Virus record (IMG/VR): IMGVR_UViG_3300031523_000007
Span: 1 to 24,774 of that record
Length of the DNA: 24,774 bases
Direction: 5' to 3' (one strand)
From: a virus
Both the position numbers and the translations under genes were made by a program. Positions 22,810 to 24,219 of this stretch are shown piece after piece. The notes below the pieces were generated by a model that saw only the letters and a program-made list of their open reading frames with translations, searched no databases and was not told where the DNA came from. Numbering within the stretch: the first letter of the stretch is position 1; the number at the start of each line of letters is the position of its first letter.

Positions 22810-23289
22810 TTAATCGAACATTGATAGTAACTTACTGCTTTCCTCTTGGCCTCGCCTGTATCGCTCTTCTTTGGCTGTGAGGTCTTCCACTGCCGTTGAT
22901 CGATCAAACGCTTTATACATTTGTGACGCAATAACTGGCTCAGCATAAGCAATGACTGCAAGCGAAGATGGAGGCCATAGATCCTTACCTTCATGCGCAG
23001 CCGCTTTAATATCGTCCTCAATGCGTTTATATGCTTTCGTCCAATCCTTGTCAGTGAATTTTTTAAGCTCTTCACACCATCGTTTAAAATTGCTTGAATA
23101 CTCGCCTTGATTATCAATGTGTTCCCCCTCCGCTGATAGAAACTTGTGTGTGAATAACTGACTCATCCGAACCCAGAATTTCGTCATTATTCGTAAATGC
23201 CTCTCGTCGCACGTCCATTGCTTTTTGCTTCCGCTCCATTCTTTCGAGTGGAGTCTCTTTTGTATTTCCTCTAAATTGATTTCTTTCAT
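22810..23289 (-). CDS. Replication protein, lambda P-like helicase loader
   Basis: 159 aa from the ATG at 23289, which has TGGAG 7 nt upstream. The core RIMTKFWVRMSQLFTHKFLSAEGE, then FKRWCEELKKFTDKDWTKAYKRIEDDI and WPPSSLAVIAYA, follows the phage P/GpP family pattern F-W-x-R-M...H-K-F-x-S-x-x-G...W...L......W-P-P-S. These proteins recruit DnaB helicase to the initiator at the phage origin. The gene overlaps the initiator gene by 176 nt in another frame; a start at the internal ATG 23187 would reduce this to 74 nt. It follows the initiator directly, as O and P do in lambda. Confidence 0.77.
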   Translation of the reverse strand: MKEINLEEIQKRLHSKEWSGSKKQWTCDERHLRIMTKFWVRMSQLFTHKFLSAEGEHIDNQGEYSSNFKRWCEELKKFTDKDWTKAYKRIEDDIKAAAHEGKDLWPPSSLAVIAYAEPVIASQMYKAFDRSTAVEDLTAKEERYRRGQEESSKLLSMFD

Positions 23290-23965
23290 TGGTTGCTCCA
23301 CCGTAATTTAATTCGTCTGACCATCTTTCTTGATTTAGCCATGTTGATGCGTTAGGTATAAATTGGCCGTTATCTTTTAGCCACTCATTAGAACTTTTGA
23401 ACTTTTGAACATTGTTAAATATTGTATTTAAAAGAGTTTGATCAGGCTTTATTTTTAACCAAGATTTTTCAGCCTGCGCCTTGCCTTGCTTCTTTGGATA
23501 TAACCCCCAAAAATCTTTAAATGATTCTTTATGTTGGTTATTGGTTTCTAGTTTATAGTTAGTAGTTAGTAGTTTATAGTTAGGGTTATTTTGGCTAACC
23601 GAATCTAACCCAGTGGGTTTATTTTGGGATACGCTAGAGGCCGCATTCTTACTTGGTCTGCCGCCTTTCGCGCCATTTAATTTATTTTTCTTTGTAGTTT
23701 TTCGATATTCTTTTAAATTTTCTTCGCAGCGAGATTGAACCCAACCCTTATCAGTTAAAGTAAAAAACTCATCCAGAATAGTATTTGCAATATCCGAATC
23801 ATTACCCAAACGTAACCGACGAAAAACCGAGTGGGTTTCTTTTGGTATAGGCTTTTCTGTATCGTAGTAGTAATTGATCAAACGAAAATATATAGCCTCT
23901 TCAACTAAGCTTAGATGCGAAGTGCTTAGGGTCCACCCTGCTATATTAAATTTGTAGTAGTGCAT
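23114..23965 (-). CDS. Replication initiator, DUF1376-type (lambda O analogue)
   Basis: 283 aa. The N-terminal DUF1376 domain (1-100) has MHYYKFNIAGWTLSTSHLSLVEEAIYFRLINYYY, RRLRLGND and LTDKGWVQSRCEENLKEYRK. A basic stretch NGAKGGRPSK and a polar repeat linker (SVSQNKP...SVSQNNPNYKLLTTNYKLETNN, about 108-142) follow. Then comes a C-terminal phage replication domain, FWGLYPKKQGKAQAEKSWLKIKP to FIPNASTWLNQERWSDE. It should bind the origin, which probably lies in its own linker. The ribosome site AAGG at 23973-23976 lies 7 nt before the ATG, inside a long RNA helix, so translation is likely controlled. The P-like gene overlaps its 3' end. Confidence 0.82.
   Translation of the reverse strand: MHYYKFNIAGWTLSTSHLSLVEEAIYFRLINYYYDTEKPIPKETHSVFRRLRLGNDSDIANTILDEFFTLTDKGWVQSRCEENLKEYRKTTKKNKLNGAKGGRPSKNAASSVSQNKPTGLDSVSQNNPNYKLLTTNYKLETNNQHKESFKDFWGLYPKKQGKAQAEKSWLKIKPDQTLLNTIFNNVQKFKSSNEWLKDNGQFIPNASTWLNQERWSDELNYGGATNERNQFRGNTKETPLERMERKQKAMDVRREAFTNNDEILGSDESVIHTQVSISGGGTH
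23549..23628. repeat. Iteron-like repeats, candidate replication origin
   Basis: TAGTTTATAGTTAG occurs at 23549-23562 and 23570-23583, exactly 21 bp apart, with TAGTTAG between them. GGGTTATTTTGG (23583-23594) recurs as GGGTTTATTTTGGG (23615-23628). CTAACC occurs at 23595 and 23605, 10 bp apart. AACCC-AGT-GGGTT (23607-23619) is a perfect palindrome. Spacings near whole helical turns fit phased binding of an initiator. Location in the linker of the initiator gene parallels the lambda origin inside gene O. Confidence 0.6.
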
Positions 23966-23966
23966 A

Positions 23967-24075
23967 AAAATACCTTAAATCAGTCCCCCTAGCTGGTGAA
24001 ACTTACCGTGAAGGCAGTAACCAAGGGTGGTTAGAGAGTGGTATGACAACTAAAGGGACTGATTTAAAGTATTTT
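23967..24075 (-). ncRNA. Structured 5' leader of replication initiator (29-bp helix)
   Basis: On the minus strand the 29 bases from 24075 to 24047 pair with the 29 bases from 23995 to 23967 without a mismatch: 25 Watson-Crick and four G-U pairs. On the plus strand those four positions are C-A mismatches. The 51-nt loop contains a 6-bp hairpin (TAACCA-CCCT-TGGTTA, 24018-24033). The 3' arm includes the initiator's ribosome site (AAGG, 23973-23976) and ends one base before the ATG. It may be a translational switch, an RNase III site, or a folded mobile repeat. Confidence 0.6.
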
Positions 24076-24219
24076 GTTGCCTTCAATTACGGAGTTTCAC
24101 GACCGCTTAAATATATTGGACCCCCGATATTCATATTTCCAGAGTTTGCCTCGGGGCAGGGCTTCTCAAAAATCCATCTTACTCTATTTGGTCATCTTTG
24201 CAAGTGGTTGCTTCATGCC
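24076..24219. other. Gap without an intact gene
   Basis: Between the 82-aa gene and the structured leader. On the minus strand a 10-codon frame starts at 24216 with a good GAGGAG site (MKQPLAKMTK), and a 15-codon frame lies at 24087-24134 (MNIGGPIYLSGRETP). Between stops the first frame continues with protein-like sequence (EALPRGKLWKYEYRGSNIFK), which may be a decayed gene. No promoter or terminator is clear. Confidence 0.4.

Follow-up and report, generated by a model that had tools for sequence, protein, structure and literature searches.

What is the long inverted repeat that stands directly before the replication initiator gene of this virus: a repeat in the DNA, or an RNA that governs how the initiator is made? 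Control of phage replication initiators, lambda O for example, is commonly ascribed to transcription and antitermination. The stretch analysed here (the window) is an IMG/VR virus record of 24,774 nt in which the initiator and its leader lie on the minus strand; its portal is P22-like (phrog_156), and the nearest cultured relative of that portal protein belongs to a Pseudoalteromonas phage (37% identity). The elements at the start of the initiator gene are as follows.

23114..23965, minus strand: replication initiator or primosomal protein of 283 aa with an N-terminal DUF1376 domain (phrog_9327, E 2.5e-45; PF07120, E 2.7e-21)
24047..24075, minus strand: 5' arm of the long helix P1, 29 nt (sequence pairing and covariation)
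23967..23995, minus strand: 3' arm of P1, 29 nt, carrying the ribosome site (sequence pairing and covariation)
23973..23976, minus strand: AAGG, the Shine-Dalgarno site, 7 nt upstream of the ATG and base-paired when the fold is closed (sequence)
24018..24033, minus strand: P2 hairpin UAACCA-CCCU-UGGUUA, compatible with both folds described below (pairing, alignment and folding)
24004..24043, minus strand: P3, UACC (24043-24040) with GGUA (24007-24004), part of the closed fold (alignment)

An earlier reading made from the letters alone (the sequence-only reading) had described a 29-bp helix with four G-U pairs over the ribosome site, and its description stands in every detail: 24075-24047 pairs with 23995-23967 at 29 of 29 positions on the minus strand, the four G-U pairs are all U-G (5' U, 3' G), the 51-nt loop of P1 holds its own 6-bp hairpin (TAACCA/TGGTTA), and the 3' arm contains the AAGG (23976-23973) and stops one base short of the ATG (23965-23963). 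Together with a small upstream hairpin (SL1) the helices P1, P2 and P3 make up what we term the closed fold. The predicted fold of the minus-strand RNA has an energy of -46.2 kcal/mol, against -20.1 +/- 3.1 for shuffled sequences (z -8.45; 0 of 200 as low), and the plus-strand fold of the same region reaches -36.6 (z -4.1).

Relatives of this element were recovered along two routes. A homology search with the initiator returned loci L004 to L083, among them L005 and L006, whose mutually identical leaders have a 25-bp hairpin at the same place with other arm sequence and a similar loop; a loop-motif scan added L238 (the same contig as L313), L321, L322 and L325, the last two being identical over the region. 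Five distinct members, all metagenomic, are therefore counted: the window, L005, L238, L321 and L322. A survey of 1.42 Mb of phage DNA for unbroken helices of at least 18 bp with loops of this kind gave as the three longest those of the window (29 bp) and of L005 and L006 (25 bp each), all at the same place; across the members P1 has 22-31 near-perfect pairs. All five RNAs end 1-2 nt before the ATG of a replication gene, and in each the outer part of the 3' arm contains a ribosome site of the AGG type.

The coding sequence behind the RNA is less constant than its position. In L321 and L322 it specifies a DnaD-like helicase loader (phrog_2514), the N-terminal part of which showed no similarity to the N-terminal part of the window initiator in a protein comparison, and the C-terminal 60 residues of the L321 protein are 47% identical to the window initiator. 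The gene that follows the initiator also differs:

22810..23301, minus strand: gene after the initiator, 163 aa, conserved in the members L321 (60% identity) and L322 (53%), where it again follows this RNA

This gene was absent from the L005 and L238 records when these were compared, and the gene after the initiator there reads like a DnaB-type helicase (assigned by eye). The same RNA hence precedes three gene combinations and two unrelated initiator N-terminal types (DUF1376 and DnaD-like). Conversely, the hairpin is missing before the initiators of the close relatives L004 (79% identity), L007 and L008, and since some close initiator relatives do without it, the leader RNA is an exchangeable module. 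Homologues without the arms had been named by the sequence-only reading as evidence against a selected helix; these three are such homologues, but the arms of the five members change in a compensatory manner, as set out below. At L004 (5444-6001) a frame resembling an HNH/AP2-like endonuclease (by eye) runs up to the initiator ATG in the place of the leader RNA, possibly a replacement of the RNA by a homing gene. A scan of genome contigs gave a single, distant relative of the initiator, L290, on a contig of a GTDB Bacteroidetes bin (CAIWKX010000066.1); the leader element is absent at that locus, which is probably a binned phage contig.

In an alignment of the five distinct members (A4), 92.3% of the cells in P1, P2 and P3 are paired; the structure string came from L238, so this percentage favours L238. 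That choice does not account for the number of pairs changed on both sides, of which there are 14, 13 of them in P1: none of 500 shuffles reached this count, controls with slid pairing gave at most 2, and the two arms of P1 evidently change together. P3 is likewise UACC/GGUA in four members and UUGCC/GGCAA in L005. The ribosome site is thus paired in a stable fold whose pairing is conserved by covariation, as in a sequestering RNA. The claim that the helix has been selected as RNA and buries the initiator ribosome site is supported by this compensatory change in five distinct members, and by the fixed spacing of 1-2 nt before the ATG of two unrelated initiator types. The strand bias on which the claim had originally been founded is real, with 16 G-U against 6 A-C or C-A cells in P1 of the five members, but weaker than in the window alone, and part of it may simply be due to the richness in purines of the ribosome site that the 3' arm carries.

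These data also bear on two explanations at the level of DNA. Given that replication initiators often act close to their own gene, the repeat might be a structured DNA, such as an origin hairpin or the site of a DNA-binding protein, that merely lies beside the initiator gene. We consider this very unlikely in view of the fixed distance to the ATG and the ribosome site inside the arm in 5 of 5 members, the preference for G-U on the coding strand (16 versus 6), and the separate helices K1 and K2 described below. The other is that which the sequence-only reading had regarded as its main rival, a MITE-like mobile inverted repeat, to which we add arms kept alike by template switching and not by selection. 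Although long near-perfect arms can arise in these ways, this is hardly credible here: a 14-mer of the arm was found at 80 viral loci in an IMG/VR scan and never with an inverted partner, no further copy occurs in the window record, and no copies with the same terminal repeats turned up at unrelated loci among the phage, viral and related records searched. Moreover, the loop core is conserved and the arms differ, the opposite of what is seen in a terminal-inverted-repeat element, and the copying of arms cannot explain the covariation of K2.

Searches for further copies agree with a narrow distribution. A covariance model of the family (R1) finds each member at one place. The coding strand scores 95-159 bits and the opposite strand 28-53 bits, a difference that is partly built in because the model was made on the coding strand; the members aside, it had no match at E 0.1 in 50 related records, which again speaks against a mobile repeat. 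By blast the five distinct sequences are absent from 50,697 phage records, contrary to what mobility would have predicted, and among plasmids the element gave one chance match only. Among the pattern scans, a loop pattern beginning CCCTYGGTTA had one match, at L203 and by chance, a second loop pattern recovered only L005 and L006, a pattern beginning CTAAN{0,1}CC had nine other matches, none with the hairpin, and a last scan with CRCGGTAAGTTTCACCA yielded no new members; L203, L306, L316, L329 and others that fit a loop pattern without the architecture were set aside. Against Rfam 15 the window had no match at the gathering score, CopA-like RNA included, its best sub-threshold match being to a microRNA family of plants, with 16.8 bits where the cut-off is 107. 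Nothing was found on DUF1376 together with an "RNA motif" in the open-access literature, and this restriction to open access makes the negative weak evidence of novelty.

Examination of the leader upstream of P1 revealed a second helix that the sequence-only reading had missed: the segment 24100-24078 pairs with 24016-23996 in the P1 loop. Its components are:

24089..24106, minus strand: SL1, a small hairpin with the stem GCGG/CCGT and the 10-nt loop UCGUGAAACU (alignment and folding)
24094..24100, minus strand: 5' strand of K1, GUGAAAC, in the SL1 loop; partner 24002-23996 (7 of 7 pairs in four members)
23996..24002, minus strand: 3' strand of K1, GUUUCAC, immediately upstream of the 3' arm of P1 (alignment)
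24078..24085, minus strand: 5' strand of K2, UGAAGGCA, in the linker; partner 24016-24009 (four helix sequences, each intact)
24009..24016, minus strand: 3' strand of K2, UGCCUUCA, inside the P1 loop (pairing test)

The two blocks are collinear, and between them CCG pairs with CGG. K1 is swapped as a pair in L005 (TCGAA/TTCGA), and in all five members it is surrounded by small SL1 stems of 4-7 bp and differing sequence, which supports a putative loop-loop contact. K2 is found in four sequences: that of the window, GAATGGCA/TGTCATTC in L238 and L322, GAAGTGCGA/TCGTACTTC in L321 and TGAGCGGT/ACCGTTCG in L005. Each has 8-9 contiguous pairs and is complementary at P 0.0002-0.0014, and the matched strands rank first among 24 reassignments; K2 belongs to the most variable stretches of the element, its complementarity being kept nonetheless. 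The upstream strand and the loop of the window have a duplex energy of -24.2 kcal/mol, equalled by 1 of 1000 shuffles, and the overall value for L005 is ordinary (195 of 1000 as good). In 603 phage hairpins, complementarity of the loop to the upstream sequence was no commoner than to the downstream sequence; the case for K1 and K2 accordingly rests on covariation and not on presence.

The K1/K2 helix takes up the strands of P3 and of the 3' side of the SL1 stem, and with a joint of just 2 nt between K2 and the foot of P1, the geometry indicates that full P1 and K2 should not coexist. In all members the closed fold is predicted at -45 to -56 kcal/mol and the K1+K2 fold at -30 to -34 kcal/mol, so that in the full-length RNA the closed fold is favoured by 13-26 kcal/mol. 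In an RNA lacking the P1 3' arm, the best fold is 0.1-3.4 kcal/mol more stable than K1+K2 across the members. The calculated probability that the ribosome site is unpaired is 0-0.13 in the free ensemble and 0.43-0.67 with K1+K2 forced (all members); for the window, the mean over the ribosome-site region is 0.00 and 0.47, respectively. Since the K1/K2 helix competes with P1 and covaries as well, a two-state switch is likely.

Folding of successive prefixes of the modelled window transcript gave the K1+K2 fold as the minimum from about 128 to 140 nt, and P1 by 145. The prefix minimum of L005 is not the K1+K2 fold, and because that member shows no transient preference, the kinetic part of the proposal stands on weaker ground than the two helices themselves.

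We conclude that this is a real and apparently undescribed family of leader RNAs with two competing folds, for which there is strong computational support, and that it likely switches translation of the replication initiator on and off, to judge from sequence comparison. The best explanation, to which we assign a probability of roughly two in three, would be a cis-acting bistable leader RNA controlling initiator translation. In the closed fold the 29-bp P1 would bury the ribosome site; in the open fold the SL1 loop and the linker would pair with the core of the P1 loop through K1 and K2, displacing SL1 and P3, blocking full P1 and leaving the ribosome site free. The open fold can form first because the K1/K2 strands emerge from RNA polymerase before the P1 3' arm does, and in vivo P1, being much more stable, would take its place afterwards. 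The initiator would then be made mainly from new transcript and shut off as the RNA matures, tying its dose to active early transcription. The trigger would lie in the kinetics of transcription and not in a second RNA, in RNase III or in a protein; the choice of fold could nevertheless be biased by a trans partner on the K strands, by RNase III acting on P1, or by a protein, and given the advantage of 13-26 kcal/mol for the closed fold in full-length RNA, the open state may, unless a partner prolongs it, be too short-lived to have an effect.

Transcription would presumably start nearby. Promoter candidates lie upstream of SL1 in all five members:

24176..24203, minus strand: candidate sigma70-like promoter, TTGCAA-16 nt-TAAGAT, upstream of the leader (8/12 matches)

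The candidates of the four relatives have 8-11 matches and are strong in L005 and L238; that of the window (8/12) is weak when taken alone, because 24176..24203 is missing from the list of the standard scan. As candidates for a leader peptide that would open the structure when translated, as in the ColIb-P9/IncB type discussed below, the frame listing of the window leader contains only TTG frames of 24 and 27 codons. On the plus strand a promoter-like match at 24043-24070 (ATGACA-16-TAAAGT, 9/12) is at chance level and not conserved; it would read antisense across SL1 and K2.

Two other RNA-level mechanisms deserve weighing against the bistable cis-acting leader. RNase III prefers long near-perfect duplexes, and a P1 of 22-31 near-perfect pairs would suit it; P1 might thus be a constitutive block that is relieved in the style of the lambda N leader, a cut freeing the ribosome site and K1/K2 being secondary. 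As this leaves the covariation of both K1 and K2 unexplained, we think it improbable. The hairpin region, perhaps cut by RNase III, might instead be a trans-acting immunity or copy-control RNA, its K1/K2 3' strands pairing with the K1/K2 5' strands on the transcript of another phage, so that the K strands would set the immunity group and explain the differences in K2 between relatives. K2 is indeed highly variable yet still complementary, and at this place another RNA is found in further phages that have the same initiator: L270 is the only locus among those scanned to pass the gathering score of the Rfam int-alpA family (RF02996), which the window misses. Loops of the int-alpA type match the sequence flanking the initiator ribosome site, but these matches are suggestive only, several off-diagonal values equalling the diagonal, and the K strands are close together in cis, where their pairing is favoured over that in trans. 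A purely trans-acting role hence seems unlikely to us, if somewhat less so than dependence on RNase III. A composite of timer and immunity device, in which the leader is born open and closes by strand displacement, and resident K strands close the initiator messages of an incoming relative, is a speculative notion of comparably low probability; if true, replication and superinfection immunity would both be set by RNA pairing alone.

Among known systems, the pseudoknot switch of ColIb-P9 repZ appears to be the closest functional parallel to the bistable leader, a comparison by analogy that claims neither membership nor kinship. In that plasmid a leader hairpin reportedly hides the ribosome site, and initiator translation depends on whether an upstream loop pairs with a remote strand. 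As in the ColIb-P9/IncB rep pseudoknot, the loop of the upstream stem-loop of the phage RNA (K1) pairs with a distant strand of the leader. Unlike ColIb-P9, the bearer is a phage and not a plasmid, the sequestering helix has 22-31 bp and encloses the partner strand in its own loop, and K2 covaries; the SL1 loop UCGUGAAACU also lacks the UUGGCG-type target loop of ColIb-P9/IncB. In a comparison of the five members no conserved antisense promoter was found. The sequence-only reading had spoken of a possible new type of replication switch; the kind is known in plasmids, as ColIb-P9 repZ exemplifies, and what remains new is this particular RNA, which matches no Rfam family. The ColIb-P9 repZ switch and its IncB and IncL/M relatives, including the study of Asano & Mizobuchi (1998), are among the works that PMC10724649 references.

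Several phage leaders offer partial likenesses. The RNA shares with the P4 CI, P1/P7 c4 and int-alpA RNAs the character of a small phage leader RNA with a loop complementary to its own transcript. In related phages the leader position is taken by int-alpA-like RNAs, and the window element differs from them in having no int-alpA sequence. In the lambda N leader, a stem with an RNase III site near the ribosome site of an early gene limits translation. The phage leader described here likewise has a stem near the ribosome site of an early gene, but lambda controls an antiterminator in this way and the present leader, putatively, an initiator; we know of no competing covarying helix in the lambda N leader. 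In the MS2 maturation-gene leader and in hok mRNA, access to the ribosome site is governed by metastable folds that arise as the RNA is transcribed. Such folds also decide it in the aapA3 toxin mRNA, where transient hairpins block translation (PMC6733600); unlike in aapA3, the transient fold of the phage leader would permit translation. In contrast to these three, which belong to RNA-phage or toxin genes, the target here is the replication initiator of a DNA phage and the architecture is another.

The family accordingly presents an RNA outside Rfam 15 that stays before the initiator while the DNA-binding domain and the next gene get swapped. If the mechanism is true, plasmid-style RNA control of replication timing would reach DNA phages, and the leader would offer a small modular system for how co-transcriptional folding sets protein dose.

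Other leader RNAs were seen in the related loci. A second layout occurs at L018 (3140-3250), L019 (5890-6000), L075 (1160-1268), in the leaders of L038/L039 and L077, and at L010 (7205-7310 and 8820-8960), often before the same initiator gene, the two copies of L010 standing before other genes. Its small hairpins have loops mostly of the UUGGNN type (UUGGCGG, UUGGUAG, UUGGAAG and UUGGCAGA), with the targets CCGCCAA, CUACCAA, CUUCCAA and UCUGCCAA inside the long hairpin that follows, at the end of which come a U-run and, after it, a ribosome site; the whole looks like a kissing-loop attenuator, and UUGGCG is also the target loop of ColIb-P9. L018, L019, L075 and L010 were dropped as family members: the layout is similar, but they have no R1 match and look like terminators. 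A third type of RNA (GGCTAG..GAAAAG..CTGCC) precedes the same initiator gene in L021, L037, L042, L046, L047, L051, L056, L059, L067, L070, L071, L078-L081, L219, L223, L227, L228 and L270. Its second loop can often pair with the flank of the initiator ribosome site, over 8 bp in the case of L021 and L227, a pairing that resembles that of P4 CI or P1 c4 RNAs and for which the cross-control is only suggestive. Finally, L133 (5627-5720) has a 13-bp hairpin with the loop TTCCCCTCA, which is the complement of an upstream strand as well as of the downstream ribosome site GAGGGGAA before an ATG; this is possibly a different RNA switch.
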